Below, piece by piece: positions 10,677 through 59,066 of a stretch of 64,000 nucleotides of DNA. Source of the stretch: Desulfosarcinaceae bacterium (GTDB lineage: Bacteria > Desulfobacterota > Desulfobacteria > Desulfobacterales > Desulfosarcinaceae); assembly GCA_030066015.1 (NCBI GenBank), contig JASJCL010000004.1:62001-126000 (forward strand). Reading direction: 5' to 3'. A program made the position numbers and the translations under genes. The notes beneath the pieces are model-generated. The model was not told where the DNA came from, did not search any database, and saw nothing but the letters and a program-made list of their open reading frames with translations. How positions within the stretch are numbered: the stretch's first letter is position 1; every line of letters begins with the position of its first letter.

Positions 10677-11807
10677 TTACGGATCGACGGCGCATCCCAC
10701 CACCGTGGGCGGATCGAACCGCTTGATGATGCGATAGGATGAATCGCGCTGGGCGGGTGTGAATCCGCTGCGGCGGATGATGGTGAGCACATCCGCCATG
10801 GTGGTGGCCCGGTCGTGTCCGGCGCTGAGGTGGACATTCTCTTCGATCAGCAGGCCACCGAAGTCGTCGGCGCCGGCCAGAAGGCCCATCTGCCCTGCAG
10901 GCACGCTTTCGCTGAACCAGGAGCTTTGGATGTGGGGAAAGTTGTCCAGCATCAGCCGCGCCGTGGCGATGACGCGAATATATTTGGCGGGATGGACCTG
11001 GCCCTGTATCTGCTGCCCCAATGGGCTGTTGCCCGGTTTAAAGGACCAGGGGATAAAACTGGTGAAGCCCCCCGAACGATCCTGAAGATCGCGCAAGGCC
11101 ACCAGATGGGCCACAATCTCCGCGTCGGTCTCCACATGCCCGAACATCATCGTCGCCGTTGTTCGGAAGCCCACCTCATGGGCCAGGCGGCTCACCTCAA
11201 GCCACTCGAAGGCGGTCGCTTTGGCGGGTGCTATCTCAGCACGGACCCGTTCACTGAGGATCTCGGCCCCGCCGCCGGGCAGGGTGCGGACGCCTGCGTC
11301 GTAGATCATCTGCAGGAGATCTCGTAGCGGCACCCCCTCCTTATCCGCCATGTACACCATCTCCGCCGGACTGAACGGGTGGATGTGAATCGCAGGGCAG
11401 GCGGTTTGAATCGCCCGCAGGTACGCCAGCCAGTCCTTTACGCCGATAGCGGGGTTGTGTCCCCCTTGGAGGAGAACGGTCGTGGCACCCCTGCGCTGTG
11501 CCTGGCGAACTTTCTCCGCGATGACCTCCGGAGGGTGTGTAAACGCCGCTTCGTCATCTGCCTGCCGCCGAAAGGCACAAAAGCGACAGCCCGATTCGCA
11601 GACGTTGGTGTAGTTCGGGTTGGTGTCCGCCACAAAAGTGACGATATCGTTTGGCAGCCGCTTCCGGCGGGCGGCGTAAGCCAATCCCATGAGCTCGCCC
11701 ATGGGCATTTTCTGAAGCAACTCCAGCCCCTCGGCGGAGGAGTAGCGGTGGCCAAGGGCGGCGGGAGGGTTTGGAGCGCTGTGCCATTCGGGCGTTGCAC
11801 GTGCCAT
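10677..11807 (-). CDS. mqnC: Cyclic dehypoxanthinyl futalosine synthase MqnC
   Basis: Radical SAM enzyme of the futalosine pathway. It cyclises dehypoxanthinyl futalosine to the spiro compound that MqnD then cleaves. The cluster motif is CESGCRFCAF (residues about 69-78), within TNPNYTNVCESGCRFCAFRR, the MqnC version of the sequence. Downstream features include LQGGHNP, LPGGGAEIL and GADDFGGLLIEENV. The start at MARATPEW (11807) is chosen because GAGGA, within the end of mqnA, precedes it by seven bases; this leaves one intergenic base pair group of four. The 376-residue length is normal. It is the last gene of the eight-gene operon. Confidence 0.93.
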   Translation of the reverse strand: MARATPEWHSAPNPPAALGHRYSSAEGLELLQKMPMGELMGLAYAARRKRLPNDIVTFVADTNPNYTNVCESGCRFCAFRRQADDEAAFTHPPEVIAEKVRQAQRRGATTVLLQGGHNPAIGVKDWLAYLRAIQTACPAIHIHPFSPAEMVYMADKEGVPLRDLLQMIYDAGVRTLPGGGAEILSERVRAEIAPAKATAFEWLEVSRLAHEVGFRTTATMMFGHVETDAEIVAHLVALRDLQDRSGGFTSFIPWSFKPGNSPLGQQIQGQVHPAKYIRVIATARLMLDNFPHIQSSWFSESVPAGQMGLLAGADDFGGLLIEENVHLSAGHDRATTMADVLTIIRRSGFTPAQRDSSYRIIKRFDPPTVVGCAVDP

Positions 11808-11811
11808 AACG

Positions 11812-12651
11812 CTATCCTCGTCCATTGGGTGGCAAAGGCGCGAAGAGAGGCGCCCGTTCATGACGTCGAAAGAGCGCTTCAAAACGGGCCTGGCCGGCCA
11901 GATCCGGGGCTGTCAGGCGACGCCGGATCACCTCGAAATATCGGATGACGGCGGGCTCCGGTGCGCACATCTCTCGCGCCGCGATGGGAACCGCCTGCCG
12001 CACCAGCCGATCCTCCTCACGCGCGAAGCGCGCCATCCAGCTCCGCAGGGTCGCTTTGACGGCGCCAGGTGCGTCACGCCGCACCACCCATCGGGCAAAG
12101 ACAAAGGGCAGCCCTTCGCGGGCGAACCATTCGCTGGCCAGATCCGTGACGAGGGTCAGTTCGGCGGGGCGCGGACCAGCTTGGACGCCGGGGCAGGTCT
12201 CTATCCGCCAGGCCCACACCAGGGCCTTGTTGCCGATCACCAATTCGCCGTCGACCGCCATGTCGGCATTGTCAGGGGCCAATTTTGGGAGACGGTCAAA
12301 ACCGTTTAAACCGCCAAGAAGCAGATAGAGCAGCCGGACGCTGGAGGCGGAATCGGTGGTCAGTCGTACCCGATCGTGCGGACCGAAGCGATCCAGGGGT
12401 TTACGGCTGTAGAAAAGGACACTCATGGAGCGTTCTTTCGCGGCGATTCCGAAGGGTCCCAGGGGCTCCACCAGGTCCCCCAGGGTGAAGAGCCCCCCCA
12501 CGGGCACCGCCGCTGCCAATACGCTCCGCTTCTTCAGTGCGGCAACACTCTCCCGGGGCAGGAGCGAAATGAAGTGGCAGCCCGCCGGCGCCCCCAGCTG
12601 CCGATAGGGTGCCATGTTGGCATAGGGAATCATGGAGATGGGGTAGCTCAT
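11812..12651 (-). CDS. mqnA: Chorismate dehydratase MqnA
   Basis: First enzyme of the futalosine route, forming 3-[(1-carboxyvinyl)oxy]benzoate from chorismate. The N-terminus ISMIPYANMAPYRQLG is characteristic of the periplasmic-binding-protein-like fold of MqnA. Other family segments are AAVPVGGLFTLGD, LTTDSASSVRLLYLLL and IGNKALVWAW. The length of 279 residues is usual. It starts 14 bases after the mqnE stop and its stop is 4 bases before mqnC, so the three are translationally close. No signal peptide; cytoplasmic. Confidence 0.9.
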   Translation of the reverse strand: MSYPISMIPYANMAPYRQLGAPAGCHFISLLPRESVAALKKRSVLAAAVPVGGLFTLGDLVEPLGPFGIAAKERSMSVLFYSRKPLDRFGPHDRVRLTTDSASSVRLLYLLLGGLNGFDRLPKLAPDNADMAVDGELVIGNKALVWAWRIETCPGVQAGPRPAELTLVTDLASEWFAREGLPFVFARWVVRRDAPGAVKATLRSWMARFAREEDRLVRQAVPIAAREMCAPEPAVIRYFEVIRRRLTAPDLAGQARFEALFRRHERAPLFAPLPPNGRG

Positions 12652-12665
12652 GGCGGGTTCCGTCC

Positions 12666-13820
12666 TCAGGGCGTTGACCGGCGGGAACGGGTACCGGTCG
12701 CCGTCGGTCGCAGGCCGCCGTCAGCAGGCGGTGGATCCTCGGCACGGCGGGGCATGGGCCGGAAGCGGCCGTCGCGTTCAACGGCGGTGAAGCCAGCCGC
12801 GGCGATGGTCTCCTCCATGCGATGACGGGCCAGTCCCACCGGTGTGGGCGACCCGGCCAGATGGGCGATGCGCTCCTCGCTGATCGTACCGTCCATGTCG
12901 TCCGCCCCCCAGCTGAGACCGGCGGCGGCGGCTTCGACCCCGGCCATGGGCCAATAGGACTTGAGGTGGGGTATGTTGTCCAGCACCAGACGCGAAATGG
13001 CCAGCACGGCCAGGGTCTCCAGGGCAGTGGGGCCATGGGTGATGAAGTTCCCCTCACCGGGCTGAAAGGCCAGTGGAATGAAGCAGGTGAAGCCCCCGGA
13101 AGCGTCCTGGGCCGCCCGCAGACGCAAGAGGTGCTCCAAGCGCTCCTGCCAGGTCTCACCAAAGCCGAAGAGCATCGTGGCGTTGGTGGTCAGCCCCAGG
13201 CCATGGGCCTCGGCGTGGACCCGCAGCCACTCTTCCGGCCCCACCTTGTTCTTCCAATGCTGCCGCCAGAGTCGATCGGAGAAGATCTCCGCACCCCCCC
13301 CCGGCATGGCGTCCAGGCCGGCCGCGATGAGGGCCCTCAGAATAGCGCGTACCGAGGTGTCGGTGGTGGTGGCGAAATAGGCGATCTCTACGGCGGTGAA
13401 GCCTTTGATATGGAGGCCGGGAAACCGCTGGCGCAGCGTTCTGACCAGCTCCAGGTTACGTTCAAAGGGCCACACTTGGTTGAGGCCGCCGACGATGTGA
13501 ACTTCGGTGGGGGTGAGTCGCCCCACCTTGTCGAAAATCTCCGCCTCTTCCATGACGTAGGCGTGGGGATCGTCCGCGGAGGCGGCGTAGTTGCAGAAGG
13601 TGCAGCCCGACCCGCAGATATTGGAGGGATTGATCTGCAGATTGAAGACATAGGTGGCCCGGTTTCCATGGCGGGCGCGGCGCTGGGCAAGTGCCGATCG
13701 TCCCAGAGCGTGGAGGCTTGCGGGGGTGATGCACTGCCCCAGGGCGTAGGCCTGCTCACGCGTGAGACGCTCGCCGGCGGCACCCTTCTCCAGGGCGTAT
13801 GCAAAGGGATCGACAGTCAT
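12666..13820 (-). CDS. mqnE: Aminofutalosine synthase MqnE
   Basis: Radical SAM enzyme that joins the MqnA product to SAM to give 6-amino-6-deoxyfutalosine. The cluster motif is CGSGCTFCNY (residues about 69-78) inside INPSNICGSGCTFCNYAASA, which is the MqnE type and differs from MqnC. It is followed by VHIVGGLNQVWPFERNLELV, PGGGAEIFSDRLW and GADDMDGTISEERI. The start MTVDPFAYALEKG is preceded by GGAAGG; the longer frame to 13934 adds sequence without family similarity. The C-terminal about 25 residues (EDPPPADGGLRPTATG) look like an unconserved extension. 384 residues. Confidence 0.93.
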   Translation of the reverse strand: MTVDPFAYALEKGAAGERLTREQAYALGQCITPASLHALGRSALAQRRARHGNRATYVFNLQINPSNICGSGCTFCNYAASADDPHAYVMEEAEIFDKVGRLTPTEVHIVGGLNQVWPFERNLELVRTLRQRFPGLHIKGFTAVEIAYFATTTDTSVRAILRALIAAGLDAMPGGGAEIFSDRLWRQHWKNKVGPEEWLRVHAEAHGLGLTTNATMLFGFGETWQERLEHLLRLRAAQDASGGFTCFIPLAFQPGEGNFITHGPTALETLAVLAISRLVLDNIPHLKSYWPMAGVEAAAAGLSWGADDMDGTISEERIAHLAGSPTPVGLARHRMEETIAAAGFTAVERDGRFRPMPRRAEDPPPADGGLRPTATGTRSRRSTP

Positions 13821-54274: not shown

Positions 54275-54390
54275 GCAGCGCCAAGCGCCTCTGCGTGGCG
54301 GGCTGGGGAGATCTGTGCTATACTGCCGCGATCATGCGGCCAGAAGAGACCGCTTCAAGCATAGACGGCCATCGAGCCCAAGAGGATGCG

Positions 54391-54870
54391 ATGTCAACAG
54401 CCAGCGTCACCGCTGTCTCCATCAGTCAACGCAAGGGCGAAAAGAAGCTCAATCTCCCATCCGGCGAACTGCGGGCGGGCCATGGGCTGGTGGGCGATGC
54501 CCATGCCGGCGATTGGCATCGCCAAATCAGTTTGCTGGCCGAAGAGAGCATCGCCCGCATCCGCGCCAAGGGGCTGTCGGTCAACGCTGGAGATTTCGCC
54601 GAGAATCTCACCACCAAGGGCATCGAGCTGTGGCGTCTGCCGGTGGGCACCCGGTTACGGGTGGGATCGGCGGTTCGACTCGAGGTCACCCAAATCGGCA
54701 AAACCTGTCACCAGCGATGCGCGATCTTTCATCAAGTGGGAGATTGCGTCATGCCGCGGGAGGGGATTTTCGCCAGAGTGCTGACCGGCGGGACTGTCCT
54801 TCCAGGGGATCCCGTGGCCATCGAGCGGTCAGACGATGGCGAGCCGACGGCACCGGCGCACACCGGGTGA
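54391..54870 (+). CDS. MOSC-domain protein
   Basis: Stand-alone MOSC domain (159 residues) related to the C-terminal part of molybdenum-cofactor sulfurase and to YiiM-type proteins, which bind molybdopterin or sulfur. The sequence shows NLPSGELRAGHGLVGDAHAG, then GDFAENLTTKGIELW, LPVGTRLRVGSAVRLEVTQI with GKTCHQRC carrying the conserved cysteines, and MPREGIFARVLTGGTVLPGD. The start MSTASVTAVS has AAGAGGA five bases upstream. A TATACT hexamer at 54319-54324 may be its -10, without a good -35. It could serve a molybdoenzyme; none is nearby except the nitrogenase genes on the other strand. Confidence 0.88.
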   Translation: MSTASVTAVSISQRKGEKKLNLPSGELRAGHGLVGDAHAGDWHRQISLLAEESIARIRAKGLSVNAGDFAENLTTKGIELWRLPVGTRLRVGSAVRLEVTQIGKTCHQRCAIFHQVGDCVMPREGIFARVLTGGTVLPGDPVAIERSDDGEPTAPAHTG

Positions 54871-55726: not shown

Positions 55727-56218
55727 TCAGGACCCCTCGCTGACCGCTGAACGGTGCGCCGGGTGTTTTCTCAAACAGATCAATTGGGTCGTTTGCCAGC
55801 CCCTTCGGGTGTAGAAATCGCGGCCGGCCCGATTGCTGCGGTCGGCCAGCAGTTGAAGCCGCGTCAAGCCGTGGCGGCGGGCCCAATCCTCGAGGGCCGC
55901 CATTAGATCTCGACCGATCCCTTGGCCCCGATGGAATTCCGCCACCACGACATCCTCCACAAGGCCCACCGGCCCCCCTTCGGCTGTGGAGAGCAGGGTC
56001 TGGATGGACGCCATGGCCACCACCTCACCGGCCCTTTCCGCCACCATGAGGCAGCGGTGCTTGCCGCACCCATCCAGGAACAAGGCCAGACCGCGTCGCT
56101 GCCGCGCTGGATCGGGGGTGAAGTCGACCTCGAGGCTGAATAGTGCCTGGAGCAGATTCACCAGCGCGTCCAAATCACCGTGTCGGGCCCTTCGAATGAT
56201 GATGTTTCCCCGGTTCAT
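55727..56218 (-). CDS. GNAT-family N-acetyltransferase
   Basis: Acetyl-CoA-dependent acetyltransferase of unknown substrate. The fold is seen in IIIRRARHGDLDALVNLLQA, then CLMVAERAGEVVAMASIQTL, VEDVVVAEFHRGQGIGRDLM (the acetyl-CoA pyrophosphate loop) and LADRSNRAGRDFYTRRGW. The start MNRGNIII is preferred over an in-frame upstream codon that would overlap the modA remnant. 163 residues. It lies just downstream of the modA remnant on the nif side; I recall a GNAT gene in comparable positions of other Geobacter-type nif regions. Confidence 0.85.
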   Translation of the reverse strand: MNRGNIIIRRARHGDLDALVNLLQALFSLEVDFTPDPARQRRGLALFLDGCGKHRCLMVAERAGEVVAMASIQTLLSTAEGGPVGLVEDVVVAEFHRGQGIGRDLMAALEDWARRHGLTRLQLLADRSNRAGRDFYTRRGWQTTQLICLRKHPAHRSAVSEGS

Positions 56219-56225
56219 GTGCCGC

Positions 56226-56734
56226 TCAGTCCCCCTTTCGGTCCCTGCAGGCGCCACCAATGGCGGCTTCGGTTCGGTAGATATAGCCGCCGTCAACCTC
56301 GCCCCGCATCAGATAGCCCAACACCTGGCAAACCGATTCACAATAGCGGGAGCGTGGGGGTCAGGGTTTCCATCAGCTGGAATTCGATCAGGGCCATACG
56401 GGCAAATTGACCGGCGGGTGCGGTCGCCGAAGTGCCGATTGCGATGCGGCCCACCCGCTCGGCCGTCAAGTCTGAGAGCGTTTTGAAGCCGGCCGGATTG
56501 AGTTCCGGAACATCAGGACGAGGCGATTGCGAGCAAAGCTGGTGACGGCCGCTGGGGCGACGAAACCGGCAGATACGGCTGCCGGCATCCAATTGAGGTC
56601 GGCCACGGCATAACCATCGACGGGGCCACCCTGCCAGGTGAACATGCGATTCACGCCGAAGGCCTCCTAGAGCCATCTGCCAAGGGGCGCCCGCCGACCG
56701 ATAAGGACCAACAGATAAAAGCCGGGTGCTTCAT
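56226..56734 (-). pseudogene. modA: modA remnant (molybdate-binding protein), multiply broken
   Basis: Decayed gene for the periplasmic molybdate-binding protein. An ATG at 56734 with AAGGAG seven bases upstream opens a short frame (MKHPAFICWSLSV) that soon stops. In the next frame are GGPVDGYAVADLNWMPAAV and FVAPAAVTSFARNRLVLM, matching the mid-part of ModA (GAPADVFISAD...WM, ...NRLVLV). The sequence then shifts frame to LNPAGFKTLSDLTAERVGRI with AIGTSATAPAGQFARMALIE, matching the ModA AxGdPxxxPAGkYA block. A second shift leads to RGEVDGGYIYRTEAAIGG, matching GEVDAGFVY. About 90 residues between signal and middle are missing. The shifts were located by eye near 56510 and 56345. Confidence 0.75.
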
Positions 56735-56781
56735 CGGATCGCTCCTTATGGCAGCGGCGATTCTCTGCCCAGCGCCGGTCT

Positions 56782-57186
56782 CTAAGCCTGCGGCGGAATC
56801 TGCTGCCCGGCAAATCGGGTCAGCGCGGCTGCAGTATCCAGAATCAACGCGACCTGTTCATCCCTCGGCGGCGGTTTAGGGGCCGCCGATAGAGCGCACA
56901 AATCTTCCATGATCTCCAACCGACAGATCCGTCGTGCCAGGTCGTTGTCCAACGGCGCCACCTCCGCCAGTGCCGCCACCAATCCCGATAGGGTATGGTC
57001 AGTGGGCATCCGTCGATGATACTGGCAGATGCCGGCCATGATATGCTCGATCCCCATGGCGGCCAGTTGAAAGACCAATTGACCGTTAAATACGGCCGAG
57101 CGACGGCGGCCGTTGCGGGCGGTTCGCAGGTATGCGCGCCCCTTGTTGAGGTGATCTTCCCATCCCGACATCACTGCGGTTTCCAT
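56782..57186 (-). CDS. HEPN-like helical protein in nif region
   Basis: 134 residues, all-helical in appearance. WEDHLNKGRAYLRTARNGRR, YHRRMPTDHTLSGLVAALAE and EMEDLC-like segments recall the HEPN fold (helical, with a conserved His region), but the RNase motif R-x4-6-H is not clear. The start at 57186 follows GGGAG by seven bases; a second ATG five codons later is possible. It sits between the [2Fe-2S] ferredoxin gene and the modA remnant, on the nif strand. It could be a nif-associated accessory protein; the role is unknown. Confidence 0.6.
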   Translation of the reverse strand: METAVMSGWEDHLNKGRAYLRTARNGRRRSAVFNGQLVFQLAAMGIEHIMAGICQYHRRMPTDHTLSGLVAALAEVAPLDNDLARRICRLEIMEDLCALSAAPKPPPRDEQVALILDTAAALTRFAGQQIPPQA

Positions 57187-57325: not shown

Positions 57326-57631
57326 TCAACCGATCCGCCGCTCCGCCACCACTTCGTCCTCTTCCAATGCATCCAGGATCTCGTCAACGCTGTCTTCGCT
57401 CTCCACGTTGCCGTACCATAGCCCTTTGGGTTGGATCACCATGACGGGGCCGTGGTCGCACGCCTTCATGCACCCCGTGCTGGTGATCTGGGCATCCAAC
57501 CCGCGGTCGAGGATCTCGTTCTCGATGTACGGCAGTAGATTGACCGAGCCTTTTCTATGGCAGACCCCTTTGGGATCGCCGTCGGCTCGGAAGCTGGCAC
57601 AGACAAAGATGTGGTGTTCCGGTGTTTCCAT
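57326..57631 (-). CDS. Thioredoxin-like [2Fe-2S] ferredoxin
   Basis: Small electron-transfer protein of the Shethna/Clostridium [2Fe-2S] type often found in nif regions. The cysteines are in HIFVCASFRADGDPKGVCHR (first two, 12 residues apart) and ITSTGCMKACDHGPVMVIQP (last two, three apart), the C-x12-C-x29-C-x3-C pattern of this family. The start METPEHHIFV has AAGGAG nine bases upstream; the longer frame to 57973 overlaps nifB. 101 residues with an acidic C-terminus (SEDSVDEILDALEEDE). It lies 160 bases downstream of nifB. Confidence 0.9.
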   Translation of the reverse strand: METPEHHIFVCASFRADGDPKGVCHRKGSVNLLPYIENEILDRGLDAQITSTGCMKACDHGPVMVIQPKGLWYGNVESEDSVDEILDALEEDEVVAERRIG

Positions 57632-57791: not shown

Positions 57792-59066
57792 CTAGCCGCA
57801 GCCCAGGCCATTGCCCCCGCAAGCGGCCCCACAGGCCGACAATTCCCGCTTCGCCAGGTGGCGTATGCTCTCGCCGGTGAAAACGGCCCCGACGGCATCC
57901 TCGATGAGGCCCTCGATCTCGAGCACCTCGATACCGGCGGCGGAAAGGAGGTTGCGGGGCTTGGTACCCACACCGTTTACCAGGAGGGTGCTGCAGTCGG
58001 ACAGAAGTTCCGCCAGCGCTTCCCAGCGTCGATCCCCGCCGCCCCTGGGCGGGGTGGCGCGAGATTCGAGAAGCTGCAAGCGCCCCTCTTTCTCGCCATA
58101 CACAAGGAGCTCGCCGGCTTCGCCCAGGTGTTGGTTGACCAACACGCCTTCCATGCTGGCCACGGCCACACAGGGCCGCGGGGACACCCGACCGGTCCGG
58201 GGTCTGCTCACCTCCAGCCGCCGGCAGGCGTTCAACGTCTGGGTCAGCACCGCGTCCGGCTCCTCCCCCAGGCGCCCGACGGCGTCGGCCCGACAGCGCG
58301 TGCAATGGCGCATCTGCTTGACGTGGGGGGCCGCGGCCGCCCGGATTCTCTCCACCGTGTTTTTGTCGGGCTCCGTCAGGTGTTCGAAGGCGGATCCGGC
58401 ATTGGGGTAGTAGGGCATGGCATTGAAGAGATCCACCGCCAGAGAGCCCATCCGTTTGGCGATGTCGGTGATATGGGCCTCGTTTATGCCGGGGAGGATA
58501 ATGCTGTTGACCTTGACCATCATCTCCTGCTGCTTGAGGGCCGCAATGGCAGCCAATTGCCGCTCCAGCAGTATTTCGGCGCCCTCCCTGGCGCGCACCA
58601 CCCGCTTGCCGACGCGCATCCAGGCGTAAACCTGCGCCCCGATGGCGGGGTCGACGGCGTTGACCGTAATGGTGACATGGCTGACGTTGAGATCCTTGAG
58701 CGCATCCACATGGGGAAGTAGTTCAAGGCCGTTCGTGGCGATGCAGAGAAGGGTCTCGGGAAACCGGGCCCGCACTCGGGAGAGGGTTTCCAGCGTCTCC
58801 TTGGGGTTGGCAAAGGGGTCGCCGGGACCGGCGATACCGACCACCGAGATGTTGCCCTTGCGGGCGAAGACCTCCTCCAAATAGACCATGGCCTGGGCCG
58901 GCGAGAGCACGGCACTGGTCACGCCGGGGCGGGTCTCGTTGACACAGTCGAATTGGCGGTTGCAGAAGTTGCATTGAATATTGCAGCGCGGCGCGACGGG
59001 CAGATGGACCCGCCCATAGGTACTGCAGGCGCCGGGATTGAAGCAGGGATGCTGGTCGAGATTCAT
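57792..59066 (-). CDS. nifB: Nitrogenase cofactor biosynthesis protein NifB
   Basis: Radical SAM enzyme that fuses [4Fe-4S] clusters into the carbide-containing NifB-co precursor of FeMo-co. The N-terminus has HPCFNPGACSTYGRVHLPVA and the cluster motif RCNIQCNFCNRQFDCVNETR (residues about 27-46). The SAM barrel carries VVGIAGPGDPFANPKETLET. A C-terminal NifX-like domain follows (VAVASMEGVLVNQHLGEAGE), and the protein ends CGAACGGNGLGCG, a tail shared with many NifB proteins. 424 residues. It follows nifN by 30 bases. Confidence 0.96.
   Translation of the reverse strand: MNLDQHPCFNPGACSTYGRVHLPVAPRCNIQCNFCNRQFDCVNETRPGVTSAVLSPAQAMVYLEEVFARKGNISVVGIAGPGDPFANPKETLETLSRVRARFPETLLCIATNGLELLPHVDALKDLNVSHVTITVNAVDPAIGAQVYAWMRVGKRVVRAREGAEILLERQLAAIAALKQQEMMVKVNSIILPGINEAHITDIAKRMGSLAVDLFNAMPYYPNAGSAFEHLTEPDKNTVERIRAAAAPHVKQMRHCTRCRADAVGRLGEEPDAVLTQTLNACRRLEVSRPRTGRVSPRPCVAVASMEGVLVNQHLGEAGELLVYGEKEGRLQLLESRATPPRGGGDRRWEALAELLSDCSTLLVNGVGTKPRNLLSAAGIEVLEIEGLIEDAVGAVFTGESIRHLAKRELSACGAACGGNGLGCG

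Follow-up and report, generated by a model that had tools for sequence, protein, structure and literature searches.

The described systems that come closest to the locus analyzed here are the nif-linked molybdate ABC importer ModABC (TIGR02141, TIGR01256, TIGR02142), the transporter TupABC of Desulfovibrio alaskensis G20 and the nif region of Desulfosarcina alkanivorans PL12. TupABC is counted as tungsten-specific, and the same report counts 278 of 3683 molybdenum-using bacteria as lacking any known transporter (PMC6147048). For TupA, the residues TTTS, His59, Arg118, Thr124 and Asp170 were named as those of the oxyanion site and Kd values of 6.3 pM for tungstate and 6.1 nM for molybdate were reported (PMC5517513); elsewhere 0.5 nM was given for tungstate by direct titration, together with 6.1 nM for molybdate (PMC4139814). 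Molybdate was furthermore described as highly toxic to sulfate reducers (PMC10102598). The titles and abstract beginnings of the literature matches listed contain no description of a nif-linked mod operon scar or of TupABC feeding a nitrogenase.

The locus under study resembles the nif-linked ModABC in its remnant sequence and in its place, which in five loci of relatives is occupied by modB, modA and modC in this order. In these relatives the operon is unbroken, whereas here parts of modB and modA and perhaps 12 bases of modC are left, and no gene is open. The order B-A-C of these five relatives differs from the order A-B-C found in L083 and others; in L083 a ferredoxin gene and a GNAT gene are followed by modA, modB and modC. 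D. alkanivorans PL12 (survey locus L066, identical to L088) shows the same arrangement of nifB, fdx, a 134-aa gene and a GNAT gene without any mod gene match, and its genome contains a TupA match and lacks a ModA over the cut-off. It is unlike the present locus in that no scar was matched in the approximately 70 bases that separate the 134-aa gene from the GNAT gene and in that nifV is kept.

Positions 56226-56734 are almost certainly a pseudogene scar of the operon modB-modA-modC, and it is highly probable that this scar goes together with a genuine loss of the importer operon. The event itself is ordinary gene decay of a known kind and it is the physiological consequence that is of interest, as the genome, that of a relative of sulfate reducers, is a natural case of MoFe-type nitrogenase genes without a recognizable ModA. 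As the loss of the operon was caught half way, its deletion steps can be read.

The scar and its neighboring genes

The window, i.e., the whole stretch of DNA analyzed, comprises 64 kb (G000:C63:62001-126000) of a genome assembly of 155 contigs that is 96.6% complete. Scar coordinates are positions in the window, and the scar lies on the minus strand. It is bordered by the following genes:

55727 to 56218, minus strand: GNAT-family acetyltransferase gene, open, directly downstream of the scar (PF00583, 71.4 bits)
56782 to 57186, minus strand: gene for a 134-aa protein of unknown family, open, upstream neighbor of the scar
57326 to 57631, minus strand: 2Fe-2S ferredoxin-type gene (fdx), open (NF041612, 89 bits, below the cut-off of 150)
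57792 to 59066, minus strand: nifB, open (TIGR01290, 367.6 bits, over the cut-off)

By synteny the GNAT gene comes after modC in five distinct relatives, and the 134-aa gene, for which Pfam and NCBIfam scans of the protein gave no match, was matched beside nif in several relatives, with matches in L070, L071 and L087. The GNAT gene, the 134-aa gene, fdx, nifB, nifN, nifE and nifK contain the terminal stop only. In the same genome nifH is open, its product being over the NCBIfam cut-off with 455.1 bits, and four Oxidored_nitro genes of the nifDKEN type are over the Pfam cut-off without internal stop; the names nifD, K, E and N are based on gene order and Pfam family and not on single models. 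A molybdate-uptake gene is broken beside open MoFe-type nitrogenase genes, as the sequence-only reading had stated. The scar consists of these parts:

56226 to 56734, minus strand: predicted scar of the modB-modA-modC operon, assigned by remnant homology and by comparison with relatives in which this place holds the operon without breaks
56724 to 56781, minus strand: unassigned leader separating the 134-aa gene from the modB remnant, with an SD-like AAGGAG and an ATG (56734)
56629 to 56723, minus strand: modB remnant, codons 63-94 by L087 (60-91 by L071), with an in-frame TAG at 56667-56669
56629 to 56633, minus strand: putative deletion junction CAGGG, five bases in which the modB and modA alignments overlap
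56264 to 56633, minus strand: modA remnant, codons 72-195 by L087, with frame changes near 56505-56510 and 56345-56365
56242 to 56253, minus strand: possible rest of modC, a 12-base stretch that equals L087 13099-13110 and begins in register with a codon of modC

Within approximately 500 bp the scar combines an in-frame stop with two frameshifts and two or more block deletions, leaving no open frame for A and B and hence no functional ModABC at this place. For modA, the family PF13531 was matched on 56469-56666 (26.5 bits, E 6.4e-6, cut-off 25) and, below the cut-off, on 56341-56676 (21.3 bits, E 2.6e-4), and the pieces 56229-56360 and 56312-56512 gave no match in the PF13531 scan. A translated search of the 64 kb window with L070 ModA (tblastn) returned 56633-56253 with an E-value of 2.4e-10, and the DNA of 56633-56264 is 60% identical to L087 modA 12513-12882 (E 6e-18, from a comparison of two short sequences). 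The ModA equivalog model TIGR01256 (E <= 0.001) did not match the broken pieces, which are matched by PF13531 and by the ModA proteins of relatives.

In the three-frame translation of the minus strand, the ModA-like peptides switch from frame 1 to frame 0 and back to frame 1. The ModA pieces in correct order on the minus strand and the two frameshifts that the sequence-only reading had placed near 56510 and 56345 are thereby confirmed; its claim of ModA in all three frames has to be corrected to two frames, since the third-frame peptide starting at ATG 56734 is not ModA. The idea that a ModA frame survives from this ATG was rejected, as the frame comprises 27 codons without ModA similarity and from 56723 on represents modB out of frame. 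The same reading had taken modA alone to be decayed, but the scar also holds part of modB, and modC is missing here. The modB remnant is matched in the window by ModB of L071 (tblastn, E 5.8e-10) and of L070 (E 1.1e-8), and its DNA (56723-56629) is 70% identical to L087 modB 11792-11886 over 96 columns (E 2e-9).

By the alignment offset, 631 bp of L087 are absent at the junction of the two remnants, with one repeat copy counted. At this point the repeat CAGGG is present in both genes of L070, while L087 has CAGGG in modB and CAAGG in modA. A short-repeat deletion is the natural reading of this junction, in which the missing block would have been lost via slippage or end-joining at CAGGG. A lost segment had been noticed before; it exists (approximately 630 bp by L087), yet it takes the end of modB together with the first 71 codons of modA. 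In the proposed course of events, modB-modA-modC would once have sat between the nifB-side genes and the GNAT gene, and the rest of modB as well as modC would have been removed by further deletions. The 12-base match as a surviving piece of modC is suggestive only, because 16 of 2000 shuffles give an equally long match.

The leader is more difficult to assign. The 62 bases before the modB piece were compared with the corresponding regions of L087, L070, L086 and L089, and 141, 177, 168 and 127 of 200 shuffles, respectively, were as good. If bases shared with modB are included, the leader aligns with the modA start of L087 with a score of 15 (0 of 1000 shuffles as good), with the small-ORF start of L087 with 11 points (15 of 1000) and with three other candidates with 8 to 9 points (146 to 412 of 1000). 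Without these bases, 153 of 2000 shuffles were as good for the modA start and 126 of 2000 for the small-ORF start. The SD-like AAGGAG and the ATG at 56734, which had been described as a retained ribosome site, are therefore at most a possible ribosome site of modA, since the likeness to the modA start is no better than that to the small-ORF start once the modB-shared bases are left out.

The operon in relatives and its losses

Of 60 genomes searched, 21 have a NifB match at E <= 1e-20, with the genome of the window among them, and 20 stretches around the match were taken. The locus survey covers the best 80 of 260 loci and contains duplicates (L088 = L066, L092 = L071). The order modB-modA-modC-GNAT is found downstream of nifB and the ferredoxin gene in L070, L071/L092, L087, L093 and L096, and the mod operon is stop-free in the matched stretches of L070, L071 (= L092), L093 and L096. 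The closest unbroken relative is L087, a Desulfobacterales MAG with a NifB of 77% identity, in which modB, modA and modC are open ORFs and the sole stop in the modB match is that at the end of the gene. Of the L087 proteins, ModB (236.8 bits) and ModA (174.1 bits) are both over their NCBIfam cut-offs, and ModC with 185.6 bits is below the cut-off of 285.05. In L070 and L071 an extra small gene precedes modB, and the L070 protein matches PF02579 (Nitro_FeMo-Co). An ORF of 81-91 aa with the conserved motif MK.TW.KI... is present before modB or at its former place in L087 (11358-11606), L086, L089 and L070; L086 and L089 retain it with 83 and 81 aa, respectively, and the L087 copy gave no match in Pfam and NCBIfam.

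In comparison with ModB, ModA and ModC of L070/L071 (E < 1e-10), 57 of the best 80 of 260 loci had no match, 12 matched all three and 11 one or two, where a lone ModC match may be another ATPase; absence is a weak result in this survey because numerous loci are cut off by contig ends and mod genes lying farther away can be missed. In L156 (13737-15929, a Verrucomicrobiales MAG) a nif-linked modA-modB-modC shows frame breaks in modA and modC, which reflect decay or assembly error; for this reason it was not taken as a second case of decay.

No modA or modB match was found near nifB in D. alkanivorans, Desulfatibacillum alkenivorans (L119), L086 and L089, in all of which the GNAT gene is kept, and some relatives have lost the same mod genes without trace. 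At the level of genomes, ModA reaches 174.2 bits in that of L087, the genome of L089 has a ModA of 91.2 bits on a different contig, and no ModA over the cut-off is present in the genomes of L086 (best 38.2 bits) and D. alkanivorans (40.7). ModA is over the cut-off in 22 of the 60 genomes. TupA is matched in 49 of 60, with the TupA cut-off passed in none. Among the 21 genomes with a NifB match, 12 have ModA over the cut-off and nine do not (G000, G002, G012, G018, G022, G029, G051, G053 and G055, of which G022 and G053 have partial NifB matches). Seven of these nine have a TupA match, including D. alkanivorans (G029), which is assembled in one contig; G018 and G055 have none, which indicates that other routes exist or that genes are unassembled.

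In a NifB tree of 21 rows, L086 (no mod) groups with L087 (mod unbroken) at 99/98, and the tree gives no clear branching among the window, D. alkanivorans and L089. The grouping of L086 with L087 implies that the loss in L086 is separate from that of the window, i.e., at least two losses, unless L087 regained the operon. Repeated loss of mod in this setting is thus likely.

Age of the decay

For the codon-position test, four ungapped modA segments were used, a choice that is biased towards conservation. A fifth segment of 13 codons was left out as it is two residues out of register; its four CESV/CEHV codons, placed in register, differ at 1, 1 and 4 sites of the three codon positions. Over 113 codons the remnant and L087 modA show 35, 37 and 75 mismatches at codon positions 1, 2 and 3, a ratio of 0.48, with 56 of 113 residues identical (49.6%). 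Three unbroken ModA pairs gave ratios of 0.69, 0.78 and 0.56 over the same core, and the GNAT gene used as control gave 34/31/81 over 140 codons. Two of these pairs are only 38-46% identical, compared with 49.6% for the remnant, and this greater divergence raises their ratio. Most of the divergence seems to have arisen under selection on the gene. As the codon-position changes are still coding-like, the decay is probably recent, in agreement with the recent loss that had been proposed before.

The sequence-only reading had also offered an assembly error, in which case the organism would carry unbroken mod genes and the scar would be an artifact of assembly or consensus. Apart from the fragmentation of the genome into 155 contigs, the evidence points away from this, and we regard it as very improbable. 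No single error would produce a stop, two frameshifts and two or more deletions together, and these several kinds of lesion are confined to some 500 bases between open genes, seven neighboring genes being open. No ModB over the cut-off is found elsewhere in the assembly, and several relatives are without a modA or modB match at this place.

Entry of molybdate into the cell

If the organism fixes nitrogen, molybdate is needed by another route, so that the earlier expectation of a substitute transporter holds. A search of the genome for another modABC yielded no match to the ModA model TIGR01256, which was positive in 11 of 14 control genomes. The ModB model gave 28 matches with a best of 92.5 bits (cut-off 182.6), and the ModC model 133 ATPase matches with a best of 188.1 bits (cut-off 285.05), where the latter is no valid test as L087 ModC itself fails the cut-off. 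The four best of the 133 ATPases reach 121-142 bits against L087 ModC, and L070 ModC reaches 215 bits. A second modABC could be missing since the assembly is 96.6% complete.

A profile search with PF13531 returned 11 matches in the genome, two of which are the scar. The NCBIfam scan covered four proteins, those on C23 and C117 and two on C70, and none of these four passes the WtpA cut-off; the remaining five matches lie on C21, C89 (two), C155 and C146. The best PF13531 match, on C23, was considered as WtpA and rejected, being PhnS2-like (235.6 bits, below the cut-off) and scoring 21.7 of 355 bits with the WtpA model. A solitary 289-aa PF13531 protein is encoded on C117 (L027 7106-7975, 61.9 bits); it was rejected as ModA, having by eye no signal-peptide-like start and no transporter gene recognized among the nearby large ORFs.

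With PF12849 three binding proteins were found in the genome, of which the one on C70 is TupA-like. It belongs to the one tupA-tupB-tupC set of the genome, the genes of which lie together and are open:

Contig C70, L026 4583 to 5416: tupA, preceded by a gene for an HTH-PBP protein
Contig C70, L026 5636 to 6319: tupB
Contig C70, L026 6333 to 7364: tupC

In comparison with the D. alaskensis G20 system, the TupA on C70 aligns to PDB 5MY5, which is the G20 TupA, with 391.7 bits (E 1.6e-116), TTTS, His59, Arg118, Thr124 and Asp170 of 5MY5 are kept (alignment with hand-counted positions), and TupB and TupC follow. It is unlike the known system in that all three proteins are below the NCBIfam equivalog cut-offs (TupA 350.3 of 400, TupB 286.4 of 320 and TupC 166.3 of 400 bits), and its contig differs from that of the nif genes.

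The loss of mod would be tolerated if TupABC or another lower-affinity route delivered enough molybdate for the MoFe nitrogenase. There is about an even chance that TupABC is the main substitute for the lost importer; with its gene content and with site residues matching those of a nanomolar molybdate binder, it is a candidate for feeding the nitrogenase. TupABC is possibly a poor source of molybdate, because TupA prefers tungstate. Sulfate and molybdate are similar ions, and this likeness speaks for a competing explanation, in which molybdate enters via a sulfate transporter or another unrecognized system and TupABC serves tungsten enzymes only. The strong tungstate preference of TupA (PMC5517513) and the two NifB-matched relatives with neither ModA over the cut-off nor TupA, G018 and G055, point in the same direction, but a TupA with the same site residues does bind molybdate with a Kd of 6.1 nM (PMC5517513), and we consider the sulfate-type route a serious possibility that falls somewhat short of even odds.

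Alternatively, the whole nif region could be decaying, with the importer as an early dispensable part for which no substitute is needed. For this speaks that nifV, which adjoins the GNAT gene in L070, L071, D. alkanivorans and L089, was not matched beside nif (beside 55727-56218) and is unrecognized in the genome of the window, where D. alkanivorans NifV finds five matches, of which the two best, both on C72, are 36% and 32% identical and on visual inspection resemble LeuA and CimA, respectively. However, nifV may be unassembled, and L087 with its unbroken mod genes is also without a nifV match in the 5 kb after the GNAT gene. As nifH and nifB are over their NCBIfam cut-offs and the four Oxidored_nitro genes are open and over the Pfam cut-off, a decay of the whole region is rather unlikely.

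Regarding replacement of the importer by TupABC or by routes shared with sulfate, it is a tentative and on balance doubtful generalization that in this Desulfosarcina-related lineage the nif-linked importer was lost more than once and that such routes are then the sole entry of molybdenum for nitrogen fixation. Strong molybdate uptake is perhaps a liability for sulfate reducers, which would be a reason for the losses. D. alkanivorans, of which a named strain has been sequenced completely and which shows the same pattern of a TupA match and no ModA over the cut-off, makes it testable whether TupABC can feed the nitrogenase.

At 54295-54867 on the plus strand of the window, 1.4 kb from the scar, a protein with a MOSC domain is encoded (48 bits); MOSC is a fold tied to molybdenum cofactor enzymes.
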